This document shows positions 26,929 through 48,717 of a stretch of DNA of 49,348 nt, in pieces. The position numbers and the translations under genes were made by a program. The notes beneath the pieces are model-generated. The model was not told the origin of the DNA, did no database searches, and saw only the letters and a list, made by a program, of their open reading frames with translations. The DNA is taken from the NCBI GenBank assembly GCA_004293915.1, contig RDZG01000076.1, positions 1 through 49,348 of the forward strand, written 5' to 3'. This DNA is from Bacteroidota bacterium. Lineage in GTDB: Bacteria; Bacteroidota; Bacteroidia; Cytophagales; UBA9547. Numbering within the stretch: position 1 is the first letter of the stretch; every line of letters begins with the position of its first letter.

Positions 26929-27306
26929 TTAAAAAAATGCAATTTGCTGAAGCTCACTACTTATTTTTTTTAATCCCAATCCTATTTTATTTTTTTGTTT
27001 TGGACTTAATTCTTTTATTCCAGAAATGTATTGTGATAGTAAAGACTGATTCATGCCTATAGATTTTGCAAAACCTTTAGCGTTTAGAAAGTCATAAAAT
27101 GCAAACATTTGTTTATAATCAGACTCTAAAATAATATCTTGTTCACTAATATATTTTGAAAGAGATTCAAAATACAAATTACTGGCTTCAACAATATTAC
27201 TTTTTAATTCTTCGATATCTAACCCAGTGGTTGCAATAGCATAGTCTTGCGAATAAGCACTAAATCCAGTTTTTGTTTTTTCGATTATAAATTTTATTTT
27301 ATTCAT
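26929..27306 (-). CDS. hicB: HicB-like antitoxin with C-terminal HTH
   Basis: 125-aa protein. The N-terminal half (MNKIKFIIEKTKTGFSAYSQ, then TTGLDIEELKSNIVEASNLY) is the degenerate RNase H-like HicB fold that binds HicA. The C-terminal half (about 85-125) is a helix-turn-helix: AKSIGMNQSLLSQYISGIKELSPKQKNKI. The HTH suggests it represses its own operon. It lies just downstream of hicA on the minus strand. Start ATG 27306 gives the family-like N-terminus; an alternative start at 27318 adds four residues (MVLK). Confidence 0.82.
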   Translation of the reverse strand: MNKIKFIIEKTKTGFSAYSQDYAIATTGLDIEELKSNIVEASNLYFESLSKYISEQDIILESDYKQMFAFYDFLNAKGFAKSIGMNQSLLSQYISGIKELSPKQKNKIGLGLKKISSELQQIAFF

Positions 27307-27592: not shown

Positions 27593-30500
27593 TTATCTTA
27601 AAATCTGAATCCAACCTTTTTTAACTTCTTGCGATTTAATGCTTTGAGTAGAAAAATAATATATGCCATCCGGCAATCCATCTGCATTCCAATTATTTTT
27701 ATAATTATCTGATTCATAAACTTTTACACCATATCTATTATAAATTTGTATCGAAAAAGGATTTTGTTCAAAATAACAACCATAAAATTCTAAAACTTCA
27801 TTAAATGTATCGCCATTTGGTGTAATTACATTTGGGATTTTTTCGGCTGGTCGATGAATTTTAACTTGAACAGAATCTATTTTTTCGACACATGAATTAT
27901 AAGTTTTTACAAAATAAACTCCTGATTCAGAAACTTTTATACCCGAAATTGTGCTGCCAGTGTACCATAAATAGCGATTGGTATTTCGGCTCGAAACTAC
28001 ATTTAAAACCACATCTTCACAAATGCTTGTTACCTCACGTGGCAAAATGGTTGAAAAACTAGAATCTAATCTAACTACATTTAATGTGTCGTAGGCAGGA
28101 CAGTCGAATGTTTCGTCAAATTGAGATACTTTTAAAACAACAGTACCCGTAAATGTTTTTATTAAATTTGGTTTTGCAATATTAGGGTTATCTACAGCAG
28201 TAATTGGAGACCATTGATACTGAAAAAATCCAATTTCTGAACTACCCAACTCTTGAGCATCACTAGAACAACTAATAATATCTTTTCCTGCATATGCAAA
28301 AGGTTGTGGTTGAACAAATACTTGTTTAACTAACGAATCTTTTACCCCACAAAGGTTTTTAACTATCAATTTAATATTCTTATTTCCTGCTTTATTGTAA
28401 AAAATGGTTGGTGGATTTTTTCCATTAAAGTTTGTAATTGATGCGTCTTTCCCAAAATCCCAACTAAAAGAATTTCCAATCGAATTATTAAAAATCGGAA
28501 TATAAGCTTTACCACAAACTGCATCAGAAGTTAAGAAAAACTCAGCTTTAGCAGTACTTGGATTGCTGCAACAATTAACCGAAATTAATTTTGTGGCAGA
28601 ACCTTGGCACAAATTTGATGAAATAACTTGTAACGTAAAATTGCCAACATCTTGCCAATTTATAGTTATTGAAGCCCCAGTTCCGATGATGCCTAAGCCC
28701 GAAACTGACCAAAAATAAGTAGCTCCTTGCAAGGCGTTTACAGTATAAGTCTGACTAGAACTCGAAATGCCTTTACAAAAAGTTGTATTTCCTGTAATAG
28801 AAACAGGATTGCATATTTGAGTTGGGCAATAAGCAGGCTCATTGTACAAAGCTGTGATTTCGGTTTGAGAAAGGGCTTTATTGTAGATTTTAATGTCATC
28901 AATTTTTCCTTGAAAAAAACTATTCAAAAAAGAATCTGTGGTACCACCAATTTCAAATAGATAATTTGAAACCCTATTTGCAGTATTAATTTCAGACTTG
29001 TCAATAACATTGTTAATAAAGCATTTAAATTCTCCATTTCCAGAATCGGTTATAATAATATTATACCATGTGTTTAGGTTCCAAGTATTTTTATTGGTTT
29101 GCATGTATGGGTTATTTCCATTATACACTTGGATTGAAGAAGTTGTTCCATTCCATTTCATCCCCCAAACACCATTTTTCAATAAAATCCAAGAACTAAA
29201 ATTATTGGTTGGATAAATCCAAATTGAAAGTGAGAAAGGATTAGATCTTGAAAAATTAAAGAATGAACTGTTTATATTTATCAGTTGATTTACGCCACTA
29301 AAACTATAAGCACTATTCGCATTTCCGAATCTGTCTGTTGTTAAAGTAGCACCAGAAACTGTGCCGTGGTAATTATTTCCACTTTTATCATCTGCATTTC
29401 CGCAAAAGGGGTAATGAGCAACTAAGCCACCAGTAGTACAAGGAGCTGGTTCATTATACAAAGCTGTGATTTCGATTTGTGATAGAGCTTTGTCATAGAT
29501 TTTGATGTCGTCAATAGATCCCTCAAAAGCCAAATTACCATCTGCATTATTTTCTATATTTCCAGTGTTTCTGCCTATCCCAATAAATGGAGGAGCATCC
29601 AATGTATTTATATAAGAGGTCATACTGCCAATTAACACATTATCTACCCTTACAGATAACACACCTGAAGAATAATCTCTTGTTGCTGTCACGAAATGCC
29701 AATTCCCATCGTTATAATTTGCTGCAGATATTATACTAGTGGGATAGCAAGTAGAGTTATCCCCAATTCCAAAGGCGATTTTGCCTCCATTTATAAGAGA
29801 AACTCCGAAATCTCTGACACAACCCCATGTCTCTGCATCTACAATAGATCCCCCATTAATCCAACTAGAGTAGTTTCCATAAGTTTTAGTAGTTTTAAAC
29901 CATGTAGAAATGGAAAAACTATTTTTAATAGGTCTAGGAATTTTTATATGCGTAAATCCCCCGTCAAAACTATACGCACTATTCACATTCCCAAATCTAT
30001 CTGTTGTTAAGGTGGCTCCTGAAACAGTGCCATTGTTGTAATTTCCACTTACATCATTTGCATTTCCGCAAAATGGGTAATGTGCAACTAAACCAGTAGT
30101 TGTACAGGGAGCAGGCTCATTGTACAAAGCAGTGATTTCGGATTGAGTAAGTGCTTTGTTGTAGATTTTGATATTATCCAAGTTTCCATTAAAATATTCA
30201 ATATTATTTGGAGATTTACCAATTAGAAAATCATTAGAACTTGAGGCTAATAGAGATGAAAAAATTGAGCTGAAATCCAAGTCATTTGACAAGATAGTGC
30301 CTCCAGAACCTGGATATTTCAAAATAGACTGTTTAATACCATCAATGTATATATAGGATTTTTTAGTTGCAACTTCGTGTACTGCACATATATGATGCCA
30401 TTGGTTATCGTCAAATCTATTGGATGTATAAAATAAGGTAGAAAATAAACTACTACCTCCACCTACTCCAAAGCAAATGCTACCTTGGTTTTGCCAATTT

Positions 30501-32341
30501 AAACCTAAGAGATATCCTGTATTCCATCCAGAATGACCTTTAGAAACAATTCTTCTTTCTCCAGTTTGAACTCCTGATTTTATCCATGTCGAAATCGATA
30601 AAGAGTTTGCTCCAAAATCAAAATTTGAATTATTCGAATTTAAAAATCCATTCCCTGTTAGAGAAATAGCTGCATTATTATTTGCAAATTTATCTTGAGT
30701 GAATATTGTATTGGTGGAAGATAAATTATTATTGTTACCACTTACATCATTTGCATTCCCGCAAAATGGGTAAGAAGCAACTAAGCCCGAACTACACGTA
30801 CTATTACAATCATATAGTTTTTTAATTTCACAATCATCTAATGCACGACCATATAATCTCAATTCATCAATTTCACCATCTAACCATGAGATACAACATC
30901 CGTTACTATGAGGTATTATTTCTCCTCCGATAACTTTTGTAAAATCATTTGTAAGCAAATTACCATTTATAGATGTAGTTTCTGCATCTTTTTCACCATT
31001 AATATAAAGCCTTGTATTTACACCATCATAAAATGCTACTACATGGTACCAGATATTCCAAGTTAAATATGTATTTGATGTAATTGAACCAAATGTACTA
31101 TTACTAGTTACTGGTCTAAAAAACAAACGATTATCCGTTGGATTGTTTTGTCCAGAACTAAAAAGAGTAAAGGTGTAAGCTGTATTTACACTTCCTCCTA
31201 ACATAATTCTAGGGAATTCGCTTCCACCACCATTAATTTTCAACCAACATGCAATCGAAATTCCTGTACCAGTAATTTTCATACTATTGCTATTTGGAAT
31301 TTCAACATAATCTACAGCCTTACTAAATTTCAAAGCATTGCCACTTTTTCCTAAAGAAAACGATGCTCCAATAATACTTCCATTATTCCCATTTCCGCTC
31401 GCATCATTTGCATTTCCATCAAAAGGATAATAAGCAACTAAACCATTGTTTGAAGTACAATTTGTAATTGGTGAACTGCAAGTACTATTGCAATCATATA
31501 GTTTTTTGATTTCACAATCATCTAATGCACGGTTATAAATTCTAACGTCATCAATTAACCCAATAAACGGGTTATTAAATACTGCAGATATATGATTCCC
31601 AATTTCAATACTTTGACAAAATATATCAGGATTCATGATTAAATTAGTCCCTATTTTTTCACCATCTAAATTTAATTGAAAATCATTATTTGTAATATTT
31701 ATTAAAACATGATGCCAATTTCCATCAATAATATTTATGCCCGAGCTTACACCAAGAACATTAGTCAAATCGCATTTAAGTAGTCCATTACTTTCTATAT
31801 ATAATGTAATTGCAGAATTTGTTAAATTCTTTTCTCCAAAAATAATAATCTCTTGGCGTCTATTTGTTACAGTTGGTTTAATCCAAGCTGATACTGAAAG
31901 ATTACTAGAGCTTGACCAACAAGGTGAAATTGTATTAACTTTAATTGATGTATTATTAAAACTATATGCTGAATTAGCTTTTCCGTTCCTATCTATTGTT
32001 AAATTAGCATTATTAAAATTTGCATTATTCCCATTTCCACTTGCATCATTTGCATTTCCATCAAAAGGATAATAAGCAACTAAACCATTGTTTGAAGCAC
32101 AATTTGAACCTATAACTGTATTGGGTCCGCCAGCAACAGTATTTACTGTTATCAATGCACTTCCGGATGTATTTCCTGCACAACTTGCATCCGCAAATGT
32201 GTTTAAAGTAAATGTTGATGTAGTGTTGGGGGCAACGAAAACGTAATGTGGATTAGCATAAATATTCGAATAATTTGTATTTGAAAGTCCGTTATTAATA
32301 TTGAAACTGAAAGGTGCTGTGCCAATAAAATTGATTTTCAA
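27593..32341 (-). CDS. LamG-like/PKD/CHU_C surface protein, C-terminal part of a stop-interrupted gene
   Basis: 1582-codon frame with five LamG-like (concanavalin A-like) modules of about 210 residues. Each opens with GLVAYYPFDGNANDASGN or a close variant and ends near DDIKIYNKALSQTEITALYN. Next come an Ig-like module (ITGNTTFCKG, then FWSVSGLGIIGTG), a PKD module (SFSWDFGKDAS), an Ig-like region, and a C-terminal domain with VITPNGDTFNEVLEF, IYNRYGVKVYES and GLPDGIYYFSTQ. That last domain is the gliding-motility/CHU_C type-B T9SS sorting signal. There is no signal peptide, and the only start is a TTG at 32341. Upstream the same frame continues through 12 sense codons and a TAG into the subtilase gene, so this is probably not an independent gene. 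Confidence 0.8.
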   Translation of the reverse strand: MKINFIGTAPFSFNINNGLSNTNYSNIYANPHYVFVAPNTTSTFTLNTFADASCAGNTSGSALITVNTVAGGPNTVIGSNCASNNGLVAYYPFDGNANDASGNGNNANFNNANLTIDRNGKANSAYSFNNTSIKVNTISPCWSSSSNLSVSAWIKPTVTNRRQEIIIFGEKNLTNSAITLYIESNGLLKCDLTNVLGVSSGINIIDGNWHHVLINITNNDFQLNLDGEKIGTNLIMNPDIFCQSIEIGNHISAVFNNPFIGLIDDVRIYNRALDDCEIKKLYDCNSTCSSPITNCTSNNGLVAYYPFDGNANDASGNGNNGSIIGASFSLGKSGNALKFSKAVDYVEIPNSNSMKITGTGISIACWLKINGGGSEFPRIMLGGSVNTAYTFTLFSSGQNNPTDNRLFFRPVTSNSTFGSITSNTYLTWNIWYHVVAFYDGVNTRLYINGEKDAETTSINGNLLTNDFTKVIGGEIIPHSNGCCISWLDGEIDELRLYGRALDDCEIKKLYDCNSTCSSGLVASYPFCGNANDVSGNNNNLSSTNTIFTQDKFANNNAAISLTGNGFLNSNNSNFDFGANSLSISTWIKSGVQTGERRIVSKGHSGWNTGYLLGLNWQNQGSICFGVGGGSSLFSTLFYTSNRFDDNQWHHICAVHEVATKKSYIYIDGIKQSILKYPGSGGTILSNDLDFSSIFSSLLASSSNDFLIGKSPNNIEYFNGNLDNIKIYNKALTQSEITALYNEPAPCTTTGLVAHYPFCGNANDVSGNYNNGTVSGATLTTDRFGNVNSAYSFDGGFTHIKIPRPIKNSFSISTWFKTTKTYGNYSSWINGGSIVDAETWGCVRDFGVSLINGGKIAFGIGDNSTCYPTSIISAANYNDGNWHFVTATRDYSSGVLSVRVDNVLIGSMTSYINTLDAPPFIGIGRNTGNIENNADGNLAFEGSIDDIKIYDKALSQIEITALYNEPAPCTTGGLVAHYPFCGNADDKSGNNYHGTVSGATLTTDRFGNANSAYSFSGVNQLININSSFFNFSRSNPFSLSIWIYPTNNFSSWILLKNGVWGMKWNGTTSSIQVYNGNNPYMQTNKNTWNLNTWYNIIITDSGNGEFKCFINNVIDKSEINTANRVSNYLFEIGGTTDSFLNSFFQGKIDDIKIYNKALSQTEITALYNEPAYCPTQICNPVSITGNTTFCKGISSSSQTYTVNALQGATYFWSVSGLGIIGTGASITINWQDVGNFTLQVISSNLCQGSATKLISVNCCSNPSTAKAEFFLTSDAVCGKAYIPIFNNSIGNSFSWDFGKDASITNFNGKNPPTIFYNKAGNKNIKLIVKNLCGVKDSLVKQVFVQPQPFAYAGKDIISCSSDAQELGSSEIGFFQYQWSPITAVDNPNIAKPNLIKTFTGTVVLKVSQFDETFDCPAYDTLNVVRLDSSFSTILPREVTSICEDVVLNVVSSRNTNRYLWYTGSTISGIKVSESGVYFVKTYNSCVEKIDSVQVKIHRPAEKIPNVITPNGDTFNEVLEFYGCYFEQNPFSIQIYNRYGVKVYESDNYKNNWNADGLPDGIYYFSTQSIKSQEVKKGWIQILR
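31381..31463. repeat. 83-bp direct repeat, copy A (LamG module 2 start)
   Basis: Matches 32023-32105 at all but three of 83 positions in the same orientation. It encodes the end of one module linker and the NNGLVAYYPFDGNANDASGN opening. Other module boundaries (around 30060-30110, 29390-29450) are similar but more diverged, so modules 1 and 2 are a recent duplication or gene-conversion product. Confidence 0.8.
32023..32105. repeat. 83-bp direct repeat, copy B (LamG module 1 start)
   Basis: Partner of 31381-31463 with three mismatches in 83. The period between the copies is 642 bases, one LamG-like module. Confidence 0.8.
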
Positions 32342-32377
32342 AAAAGTTTGCTGTCCTTGTGTGATAGTAGCTGTTCC

Positions 32378-33967
32378 CTAAATTGCTGCGCTCGGACTTT
32401 TTATTGTTATATAACTTGTTTTGGTAATACTCGAAATCCCCTTACTGTTTGTGGCAGAGTGAGTTACCGAATATGTTCCAGGCGATGGGTAACTCACAAC
32501 GGGGTCTTTTAGCGTAGAAGTTGCAATATTGGCACCTGTAAACGTCCAACCATAATTTGTGATACCGTTGCCAATGCTTTTATCAAAAAATGTAACTTGT
32601 TGCGAAACACATGGTGTAGTTTTATCCGAATCAAAATCCACTACAGGTTTTCCATTCATACAGGATAAAGCACGAAAGGCATCTATTCGTCCAAAACCCA
32701 TTTGGTTTTCGTATCCAAAATTAAGTGCATCAATATTTATTGCAGAGCTTGTTAAACAACCTTCAATAAAAGCATTTGTGGCACTTGGCACGTAGGATTT
32801 CATTAATCCGCAAAGCCCAGCCACAAGCGGACAAGCCATTGAAGTTCCACTTAAATTTTCATAGGCAGCATTAGAACTTGATACCGAACTCCAAATACCT
32901 AAACCCGGTGCCATTACATCAATTGTGCTGCCATAATTTGAAAAATTAGTAATCTGATCATTAGAATCTGTAGCTCCAACCGAAATCACATGATTATATG
33001 ATGCTGGATAAAATGGAACATCAGTGTAATTATTTCCTGCGGCAGCCACAACTGTTATCCCTAAACTATAGGCATAATCAAACAATAATTGATAGGTTTG
33101 TGATGAGCCAAAACCACCCCACGAAAGACTAATCACATCTGGTTTTGCAGCAATGGCATATTCTAAACCTTCATATGCAAAAGGAATGCTTGGCGAAATA
33201 ACCGCATCTCGTGTACATTTTACTGCCATAATTTTACAATTACTTGAAATAGAGGCTATTCCAGTTCCATTATTTGATTTGGCAGCAGCAATTCCAGCAC
33301 AATGTGTTCCGTGTTTTTTGCCAGCATTTGTAGTTGTAGGATTATTATCTCCATCAGCCACATCGTAGCCATTTATGTCATCTATATACCCATTTGCATC
33401 ATCATCAATGCCGTTTCCAGCAATTTCGTTGGGATTTACCCAAATATTGGGTGCCAAATCTTGGTGGTCGAGGCGAACAGCATCGTCTACAATTGCAATC
33501 ACAACACTGCCCACTCCAACACTCAAATCCCAAGCTTGTGATGCATTTATTTTTGGCAAATACCATTGATTAGGATGTAAATCATTTGGAGTATAAAACA
33601 GCTCATAAATTGGTATCTTTTCGGCATATTCTACAAATTTATTTTCTTTAATATCAGCTAAAAATGCATTTAATTTTGTAGAATCTTTAATAGATATTTT
33701 ATAAATGCGTTGCAATTTACTACTTTTTAGTTTTGATGCTTTATTAGAGAATTTGACTTCGTATTTATCAAATAAATTAAAAAATAAGCTTTCGATTATT
33801 GCATTTTTAGATTGTGTTTTTACTAATTTTGCATTTGAATATGATGATAAATCAAACTCAAAATCATCTTTTATCTTCACAAAAACATCAGTAGAACTTG
33901 TTTTATTCTGTTGTGCAAAAAGGCTTATATTTAAAAATAAGGTTATTAGTAATAAATGTGTTTTCAT
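32378..33967 (-). CDS. Secreted subtilisin-like (S8) serine protease with PKD domain
   Basis: 529-aa protein. Signal peptide MKTHLLLITLFLNISLFAQ, a pro-region (about 25-125), then an S8 catalytic domain with Asp161 (VVIAIVDDAV), His219 (KKHGTHCAGIAA) and Ser376 (NLSGTSMACP). A PKD module follows at about 440-515 (CVSQQVTFFDKS, then TYSVTHSATNSKG). The reading frame stops at a TAG after SPSAAI. The next codons of the same frame (GTATITQGQQTFLKINFIGTAP...) continue a typical Bacteroidota Ig-like module and run on into the LamG/CHU_C frame. The protease as written lacks the C-terminal T9SS sorting domain it would need for export across the outer membrane. Confidence 0.9.
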   Translation of the reverse strand: MKTHLLLITLFLNISLFAQQNKTSSTDVFVKIKDDFEFDLSSYSNAKLVKTQSKNAIIESLFFNLFDKYEVKFSNKASKLKSSKLQRIYKISIKDSTKLNAFLADIKENKFVEYAEKIPIYELFYTPNDLHPNQWYLPKINASQAWDLSVGVGSVVIAIVDDAVRLDHQDLAPNIWVNPNEIAGNGIDDDANGYIDDINGYDVADGDNNPTTTNAGKKHGTHCAGIAAAKSNNGTGIASISSNCKIMAVKCTRDAVISPSIPFAYEGLEYAIAAKPDVISLSWGGFGSSQTYQLLFDYAYSLGITVVAAAGNNYTDVPFYPASYNHVISVGATDSNDQITNFSNYGSTIDVMAPGLGIWSSVSSSNAAYENLSGTSMACPLVAGLCGLMKSYVPSATNAFIEGCLTSSAINIDALNFGYENQMGFGRIDAFRALSCMNGKPVVDFDSDKTTPCVSQQVTFFDKSIGNGITNYGWTFTGANIATSTLKDPVVSYPSPGTYSVTHSATNSKGISSITKTSYITIKSPSAAI

Positions 33968-45729: not shown

Positions 45730-46344
45730 ATGTCGGCAGCACACAAACTACATTTTACTATCGAAGATTATCTTGAAACAGAGTCCTTATCGCCTGTAAA
45801 AAGAGAATATTATCGTGGCGAAATTTTTGATATGGCAGGTGCAAGCCCAGTTCATAATCTAATTGTAGGCAATTTAGCTAGTATTTTAGGGCAATATTTA
45901 AAAGGCAAACCTTGTAACTTCTTTCCATCTGACTTAAAAGTTTTTGTAGAAAAATACCTTTTTTTTACGTACCCAGATTTGACAATAGTTTGTGGGCAAC
46001 CTGAGTTTTTTGAAAAAGATGAAAATACATTGATGAACCCTTCGGTAATTATTGAAGTTACATCAAAAAGCAATTCAAATTATGATAAATCAGGGAAGTT
46101 TGGATTGTTTAGGGCTTTACCTAGTTTTGAAGAATATATTTTGATTTCTTCATTCACACACGAAGTAATTATTTATCATAAACACGATGAGAACGTTTGG
46201 GGAATAACAGCAAGTGAAAACCAACTTTCTGAAAATGTATTTATTAAAACAATAGATTTAACAATTTCTTTAGAGGATATTTATTACAACACAGCTTTAA
46301 TTGAAAATAAATTAACATTAAAAAGCTTTAATCAGATTTTATAA
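45730..46344 (+). CDS. Uma2-family (DUF820) putative endonuclease
   Basis: 204-aa protein of the PD-(D/E)XK-related Uma2 family, which is abundant in cyanobacteria and some Bacteroidota and has no settled function. Core residues are seen in order: EYYRGEIFDMAGASPVHNLIVGNL (about 27-50), SDLKVF, the acidic TYPDLTIV (about 80-87), and NPSVIIEVTSKS with Glu and Lys (about 105-116). YDKSGKFGLFRALPSFEEYILI follows. It is the first of two tandem paralogues between nuoD and nuoE. Confidence 0.88.
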   Translation: MSAAHKLHFTIEDYLETESLSPVKREYYRGEIFDMAGASPVHNLIVGNLASILGQYLKGKPCNFFPSDLKVFVEKYLFFTYPDLTIVCGQPEFFEKDENTLMNPSVIIEVTSKSNSNYDKSGKFGLFRALPSFEEYILISSFTHEVIIYHKHDENVWGITASENQLSENVFIKTIDLTISLEDIYYNTALIENKLTLKSFNQIL

Positions 46345-46381
46345 ATATTTAAGGTATTGAGTTATAAAAAGTAAAAAAATC

Positions 46382-46981
46382 ATGTCAGCACAACCTATAG
46401 TATTAATATCTGAAGAAGAATATCTAGAAATGGAAATTTCTTCGCCTTTTAAAAGCGAGTATTTTAAAGGCGAAGTATTTGCTATGGCTGGAGGTACACA
46501 GGTACATAATAACATTGGCATAAACTTAACTTTGCTTATTGGCAATTTTCTTAAAAATAAAAAATGTCGTTTATATTCAAGCGACATGAAAATATTTGTA
46601 CCAAAATACCCATATTATACCTATCCTGATTTGAGTATAGTTTGTAATAAACCTGAATATAGTCCACTTACTGACCATGCCATTACAAATCCGAGTGTAA
46701 TAATTGAAGTTTTATCAAAATCTACTGAAAATTATGATAAAACAACTAAATTTGGATTGTTTAGACAAATACCAAGTTTGCAGGAATTTATTTTGGTTTC
46801 ATCATTAAAACATCATGTTGAAATATATCATCGATTTGATGTTGAAGTTTGGGAACAAACCGCTGATACAACCAAACTAGAACATACTGTTTTGATTAAA
46901 GAAATTGAGTTAGAAATTACTTTAGCAGATATTTACGAAAATACTGATTTACTAGAAAATAAAATAGATTTTAAAAGATGA
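46382..46981 (+). CDS. Uma2-family (DUF820) putative endonuclease, tandem paralogue
   Basis: 199-aa paralogue of the preceding gene with the same motif order: EYFKGEVFAMAGGTQVHNNIG, SDMKIF, TYPDLSIVCNKPEY, NPSVIIEVLSKSTENYDKTTKFGLFRQIPSLQEFILV. Identity to its neighbour looks moderate, so the duplication is not recent, unless both were acquired. Its stop overlaps the nuoE ATG (ATGA, 46978-46981), so nuoE translation probably depends on it. No inverted repeats or transposase flank the pair. Confidence 0.88.
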   Translation: MSAQPIVLISEEEYLEMEISSPFKSEYFKGEVFAMAGGTQVHNNIGINLTLLIGNFLKNKKCRLYSSDMKIFVPKYPYYTYPDLSIVCNKPEYSPLTDHAITNPSVIIEVLSKSTENYDKTTKFGLFRQIPSLQEFILVSSLKHHVEIYHRFDVEVWEQTADTTKLEHTVLIKEIELEITLADIYENTDLLENKIDFKR

Positions 46982-47526
46982 GTGCCTATTCACACGATAC
47001 GATAAAAACAGGAAAAGAAATTAAATTTTCGCCAGAAGCCCAAAAATTTGTAGATAAACATTTGGCAAAATATCCTGAAGGAAAAAAGAAATCTGCTTTA
47101 CTTCCTTTGTTGCATTTGGCACAACAAGAACTTGGTGGTTGGTTAAGTGTTGATGTACAAGATTATATAGCTACTATATTGAATATCAAGCCAATAGAGG
47201 TTTATGAAGTAGTAACATTTTATTCGCAATATTACACCAAACCTGTAGGAAAATATGTATTTGAAGTATGCCGTACAAGCCCTTGCAAATTGCGTGGTTC
47301 AGACGAAATAGTGGAATACATCGAAAATAAACTAAGCATAAAAGATGGACAAACAACTCCAGATGGCATGTTTACGCTCAAAACGGTGGAGTGTTTGGCT
47401 GCTTGTGGCATGGCACCCGTGATGCAATGTGGATTGCCTTATCACGAATTTTTGACCGAAGAAAAAGTGGATAAAATCATTAACGATTGCATAGCCGAAA
47501 ACAAAATAAGTAGAGCGTTTTTTTAG
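46978..47526 (+). CDS. nuoE: NADH-quinone oxidoreductase subunit E
   Basis: 24-kDa subunit of complex I with the N1a-type [2Fe-2S] cluster near NuoF. In 182 aa the cluster ligands are Cys98 and Cys103 (CRTSPC) and Cys139 and Cys143 (CLAAC). The N-terminal helical bundle has the typical SALLPLLHLAQQELGGWLS and PIEVYEVVTFYSQYY. Its start overlaps the second Uma2 gene. nuoF is expected next in this operon type but dxr follows instead; the remaining nuo genes may lie beyond the right edge. Confidence 0.96.
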   Translation: MSAYSHDTIKTGKEIKFSPEAQKFVDKHLAKYPEGKKKSALLPLLHLAQQELGGWLSVDVQDYIATILNIKPIEVYEVVTFYSQYYTKPVGKYVFEVCRTSPCKLRGSDEIVEYIENKLSIKDGQTTPDGMFTLKTVECLAACGMAPVMQCGLPYHEFLTEEKVDKIINDCIAENKISRAFF

Positions 47527-47547: not shown

Positions 47548-48717
47548 TTGGAACCCAAAACAAAACGCCATTTGGCGATATTAGGCTCAACAGGTTCTAT
47601 TGGCACACAAGCCTTAGAAGTTGTAAAATCACACCCCGAAAAGTTTGAAATAGAAGTACTTACGGCTCAAAATAATGCCGATTTGTTAATTGCTCAAGCT
47701 ATCGAATTTCAGCCAAATTGTGTGGTTATTGCCAACGAAACTTTGTACGAAAAAGTAAAATTAGCATTAGCAAACCAACCCATAAAAGTTTATACTGGCA
47801 ATGCAGCCATTGCCGATGTGGTGCAAATGACAGATATCGACATGGTTTTGACCGCCATGGTTGGTTATTCGGGACTTTTGCCAACGATAAAAGCTATAGA
47901 AGCAGGTAAAACTATTGCTTTGGCAAATAAAGAAACATTGGTAGTTGCAGGCGAATTAATTACCAAATTAGCTTATGAAAAAGGTATCAATATCTTACCT
48001 GTAGATTCCGAACATTCAGCAATTTTTCAATGTTTGGTTGGCGAATTTCATAATCCCATCGAAAAAATAATTTTAACTGCTTCTGGTGGACCATTTAGAG
48101 GCAAAAAGCGTGATGAACTTTTGCACGTAACCAAAGCACAAGCATTGAAACATCCAAATTGGGAAATGGGTGCAAAAATTACCATAGACAGTGCCAGTTT
48201 GATGAACAAAGGACTCGAAGTGATAGAAGCAAAGTGGCTTTTTGCTTTAAAACCCGAACAGATTGAGGTTATTGTGCATCCGCAAAGTATTGTGCACTCA
48301 TTGGTACAATTTAAAGATGGTTCGATGAAAGCCCAAATGGGTTTGCCTGATATGAAACTTCCGATTCAATATGCCATTGGATTTCCAAACAGATTAACAT
48401 CTGATTTTGAGCGATTTAACTTTTTAAATTATCCCCATTTAACTTTTGAAAAACCAGATACAGAAACATTTAGAAATTTAGATTTGGCATACGAAGCCCT
48501 AAAAGCGGGTGGAAACAAAGCCTGTATTTTAAATGCAGCCAACGAAATTGCGGTTGATGCCTTTTTGAAAGACAAAATCAAGTTTTTGGATATTGCCAAA
48601 ATCAATGAAAAAACCATGAATGCTTGCAGTTTTGTTTCAAAACCAAAGCTAGAAGATTATCAAAATACAGATAAAGAAGCCAGAAAAGTGGCAGAAGAAT
48701 TTGTGAATAAAACATAA
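47548..48717 (+). CDS. dxr: 1-deoxy-D-xylulose-5-phosphate reductoisomerase
   Basis: Second enzyme of the MEP isoprenoid pathway: converts DXP to MEP with NADPH and a divalent metal. 389 aa, full length. Visible: NADPH motif LGSTGSIGTQALEVV (11-25), metal/substrate site VDSEHSAIFQCL (about 151-162), TASGGPFRG, ITIDSASLMNKGLEVIEA (about 210-227) and the flexible loop HPQSIVHSLV. The start is a TTG (MEPKTKRH); no ATG gives a complete NADPH motif. It follows nuoE by 21 bases and is likely transcribed with it. Confidence 0.95.
   Translation: MEPKTKRHLAILGSTGSIGTQALEVVKSHPEKFEIEVLTAQNNADLLIAQAIEFQPNCVVIANETLYEKVKLALANQPIKVYTGNAAIADVVQMTDIDMVLTAMVGYSGLLPTIKAIEAGKTIALANKETLVVAGELITKLAYEKGINILPVDSEHSAIFQCLVGEFHNPIEKIILTASGGPFRGKKRDELLHVTKAQALKHPNWEMGAKITIDSASLMNKGLEVIEAKWLFALKPEQIEVIVHPQSIVHSLVQFKDGSMKAQMGLPDMKLPIQYAIGFPNRLTSDFERFNFLNYPHLTFEKPDTETFRNLDLAYEALKAGGNKACILNAANEIAVDAFLKDKIKFLDIAKINEKTMNACSFVSKPKLEDYQNTDKEARKVAEEFVNKT

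Follow-up and report, generated by a model that had tools for sequence, protein, structure and literature searches.

The split subtilase gene

The 49,348-nucleotide stretch of DNA analysed here (the window; positions 1 to 49,348 of contig RDZG01000076.1 in the Bacteroidota assembly GCA_004293915.1, order Cytophagales) carries a long subtilase gene that is interrupted by a single in-frame TAG, about one quarter of the way along the full-length reading (Table 1). Translation of the minus strand from 33967 to 27593 gives a frame of 2125 codons including both stops, which bears out the preliminary description of one TAG splitting a subtilase-LamG-CHU_C frame of this length and adds the strand, which that description did not state.

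The open frame beyond the TAG is not due to chance. The other 31 long frames in the window continue for 0-396 codons past their stops (median approximately 9), and those long extensions that were inspected enter separate neighbouring genes, as where dxr, an unrelated gene, comes next in frame after the TAG that ends nuoE. A survey of 812 kb of the same genome took in 601 long frames, and no other same-frame pair among them is as extreme as the one at 32378, with its 1594 open codons. The 3′ frame certainly encodes protein, because it contains both LamG (E=4e-100) and CHU_C (E=2e-19) matches. Another pair of window frames joined by a TAG (46978-47526 and 47548-48717) was considered and rejected, as these are the two genes nuoE and dxr.

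Each half of the split gene is incomplete alone, as had been proposed, with the signal peptide, protease and PKD domain in the 5′ part, and the LamG repeats and type IX sorting domain in the 3′ part. The sorting domain lies beyond the TAG and is thus not on the same translated product as the Peptidase_S8 domain. Type IX cargo proteins must carry a signal peptide as well as a sorting domain at the C terminus (PMC10202324). The host has a gene for the type IX translocon (SprA family, TIGR04189, 1634.6 bits), and there is no PorP/SprF gene among the annotated neighbours of the split gene. The full-length product would probably be a very long surface-bound protease.

Table 1. Components of the interrupted subtilase gene and domains of its two parts.
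Feature	Position	Strand	Description
5′ part	32381..33967	-	Signal-like stretch, prodomain-like region, Peptidase_S8, PKD; 529 codons, product ends ...SPSAAI
Peptidase_S8 (PF00082)	residues 155-426 of 5′ part		E=2.8e-47
PKD	residues 438-522 of 5′ part		E=6e-7
In-frame TAG	32378..32380	-	Serine in orthologues: AGT (G002), TCA (G024)
TTG	32339..32341	-	First start-like codon past the TAG, 12 codons on; internal Leu codon in aligned relatives
3′ part	27596..32377	-	Ig-like module, LamG repeats, CHU_C; 1594 sense codons, without its own signal peptide
LamG	3′ part		Five Laminin_G_3 stretches, E=4e-100 (Pfam)
CHU_C (PF13585)	3′ part		E=2e-19, 70 bits (Pfam)
Type B type IX sorting domain (TIGR04131)	3′ part		36.1 bits, cut-off 35 (NCBIfam)
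TAA	27593..27595	-	Natural end of the ancestral gene

Orthologues and the ancestral state

Two relatives are informative about the codon at the TAG site. In G024, a genome of the same order and the nearest relative without an interruption, the orthologue is a single 1544-amino acid open reading frame. It begins with a signal peptide and subtilase, continues into the same PKD/Ig-like modules and reaches CHU_C, sharing the start, the junction module and the sorting domain with the split gene; at the junction it has TAILSGTASI, against SAAI*GTATI in the window. In G002, a genome of the same genus, the orthologue (L017, REAG01000291.1) aligns without gaps over 560 codons across the site and reads SATLSGTATI. 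Both relatives therefore have the serine that had been guessed from the window alone, in a single frame, supporting the view of one ancestral protein split by the TAG. We looked in the relatives for orthologues encoded as two genes, or for a LamG part with a start codon and signal peptide of its own, and found neither.

By this comparison the full-length single frame is the ancestral state, and since both relatives have serine at the site and the G002 alignment is ungapped, the TAG is a lineage-specific change, acquired on the branch leading to the window with no net shift of frame. G024 has other repeats where the split gene has its LamG array, so that ancestry at this depth extends to the two ends and the junction alone.

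Damage to the gene elsewhere in the genus

The G002 copy is itself damaged, and its lesions are independent of the TAG and at other positions. Within its catalytic domain, upstream of the catalytic GTSMA serine motif, it has a TAA where the window protein has tryptophan 359, and its frame stops again approximately 29 codons beyond the TAG-equivalent site, where a 97-bp repeated sequence begins. This sequence is present with 100% identity in three other G002 contigs and with 87% identity in a fourth, and several copies lie at contig ends, a pattern expected of a mobile element. Repeated ends at L017:6474-6570 and L044:1-103 adjoin fragments of the orthologue, and are probably insertion sequences or small transposons that break the gene.

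A LamG fragment at the end of G002 contig C39 is 86% identical to the window's first LamG (dN 0.05, dS 0.31) and may belong to the G002 gene as its 3′ part; it begins at a repeated end, is followed by a 5.2-kb gap of Ns, and is not used here as proof. Because synonymous sites are saturated in the comparison with the G002 orthologue, dN/dS against it is little informative.

The third genome of the genus, G001, has no orthologue (best match E 2e-13). The gene is thus lost in one species, broken in a second and interrupted by a single nonsense codon in a third, suggesting that it may be dispensable and in the course of being lost in the genus.

TAG is a functional stop codon

TAG is a normal, functional stop in this genome, which uses the standard code, because the release factor 1 (RF1) gene is intact, none of the 34 tRNAs found, all of them typed, has a CUA anticodon, and TAG terminates 89 of the 601 long frames (15%). 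Reassignment or suppression of TAG was rejected on these grounds. The 91 bases from the TAG onwards fold no better than shuffled sequences (z=+1.6), and no recoding structure was found. Normal recoding is present elsewhere in the genome, as the usual TGA site for programmed frameshifting is found in prfB (L083, about 2500-2580, coding strand; TATCTTTGAC). A TAA flagged as internal to the release-factor match at C143 was read as the natural end of prfB.

Regulated or basal readthrough, giving a little full-length exported protease alongside a major short form, would explain the 1594 codons that remain open after the stop, and readthrough of many in-frame stops in bacteria has been argued for in a survey (PMC7918605). 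However, the codon is not conserved, being serine in both G002 and G024, and the intact RF1, the lack of a CUA tRNA, the absence of structure and the common use of TAG as a terminator all speak against it. Readthrough, one of the options in the preliminary description, is thus very improbable.

Alternatively, the two parts could be separate genes, with the LamG part restarting after termination at the TTG at 32341, the only near start after the TAG. There is no in-frame ATG for 247 codons downstream of the TAG, and inspection by eye found no signal-peptide-like stretch after the TTG, in agreement with the earlier statement that the LamG part has neither. The LamG part would then have an export domain but no signal peptide, the TTG is an internal leucine codon in G002, where the TAG site is sense, promoter-like sites at the junction and in the window occur only at chance level, and no terminator was found at the junction. 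A two-gene arrangement is scarcely credible, and both regulated readthrough and a second gene are unlikely.

Age and origin of the TAG

In the 3′ part 684 of 14346 possible substitutions (4.8%) yield a stop, so that approximately 228 stops are expected per neutral substitution per site, and none is observed. Poisson reasoning on these absent stops, which assumes no constraint on the 3′ part, would place the age of the TAG below about 0.013 neutral substitutions per site, given that there is no further stop in 1594 codons. The TAG would most simply derive from TCG by one substitution; TCG is a common serine codon, and across the other genes of the window it makes up 134 of 797 serine codons. 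Starting instead from the AGT of G002, three substitutions would be needed, or two indels of T that offset each other.

It is also conceivable that the gene is intact with a sense codon at this site, and that the TAG is an error of base calling or consensus. A single codon is affected in an otherwise perfect 2125-codon frame, and the sister assembly also has an isolated in-frame TAA. However, with the frame preserved and no gap in the alignment, the usual single homopolymer indel is not the cause, and a clean TAG requires either a wrong consensus base or two offsetting indels; we consider an error unlikely. Strain variation, in which some cells have TAG and others a sense codon and the assembly picked one, is rather improbable too, and no repeat or invertible element that could switch the TAG is seen at the site.

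A second split gene is present in the same genome, a hydrolase-like frame with a GFSLGG motif (G000:C66:19976-21026, minus strand; L122/L123) that has no Pfam match and is interrupted by one TGA. The genome thus has a low frequency of in-frame stops of more than one kind, which is what ordinary nonsense mutations or scattered consensus errors would produce.

Interpretation

We favour the view, with a probability of about 0.68, that a recent nonsense mutation has set a dispensable gene for a type IX-secreted protease on the path to decay by parting the enzyme from its export signal. The preliminary description had listed nonsense mutation, population variation, readthrough and sequencing error without choosing among them, and the first is the best supported. 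One substitution, most simply of a TCG serine codon, would have created the stop in a type IX-exported surface subtilase. Translation ending there would yield a 529-residue product with the signal peptide, protease and PKD domain but no sorting domain, which would remain in the periplasm or be degraded, and the 1594-codon remainder, now presumably unconstrained, would not be made, or only in trace amounts lacking a signal peptide. Surface export would fail because the signal peptide is on one fragment and the sorting domain on the other.

Several considerations weigh against this interpretation. An intact 3′ part is equally expected if readthrough still makes the whole protein, and continued constraint would leave it in the same state, so its intactness alone cannot separate a young nonsense mutation from readthrough. 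In-frame stops interrupt both copies of the gene in the genus, a pattern to be expected if such stops were frequent and tolerated, although they are at different positions and G002 has transposon-like ends. That the change is real, fixed and recent is likewise inferred. A tolerated, leaky TAG that sets a ratio of periplasmic short protease to a little full-length surface-anchored protease, in a genus that repeatedly gains such stops in the same gene, seems highly improbable. Most likely the gene is an unremarkable case of recent interruption by a nonsense codon, with no new mode of translation involved.

The split has consequences mainly for annotation: an automatic gene caller would return two entries, a subtilase lacking its export signal and a headless LamG/CHU_C protein, although in the ancestor the two formed a single type IX cargo. 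Lesions that arose independently in two species, together with absence from a third, suggest that this large surface protease is dispensable in the genus.

Neighbouring genes

Directly downstream of the split protease gene is a HicA toxin gene (PF07927; 27325-27510, minus strand), followed by a small gene (26929-27306, minus strand) that has no Pfam match and is possibly its partner antitoxin. Two tandem Uma2-family genes (45730-46981, plus strand) lie within the NADH dehydrogenase cluster, where they are flanked by the gene for the 49-kDa subunit and by nuoE.

Comparison with known systems

The proposed read-through stops (PMC7918605) share with this gene an in-frame stop followed by an open frame, but that study required the stop to be common to orthologues of at least two species, whereas here the orthologues have serine. 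Read across the stop, the gene has the same S8, PKD/Ig-like and CHU_C organization as type IX-secreted subtilases with a type B sorting domain (TIGR04131), and differs in being split by the TAG. The closest parallel is with bacterial nonsense-interrupted pseudogenes, which likewise have one in-frame stop, a single ancestral frame in relatives and independent lesions in sister species. Nothing essential differs from these, except for the unusual length of the 3′ part and its still perfectly open frame, which argue that the interruption is young.
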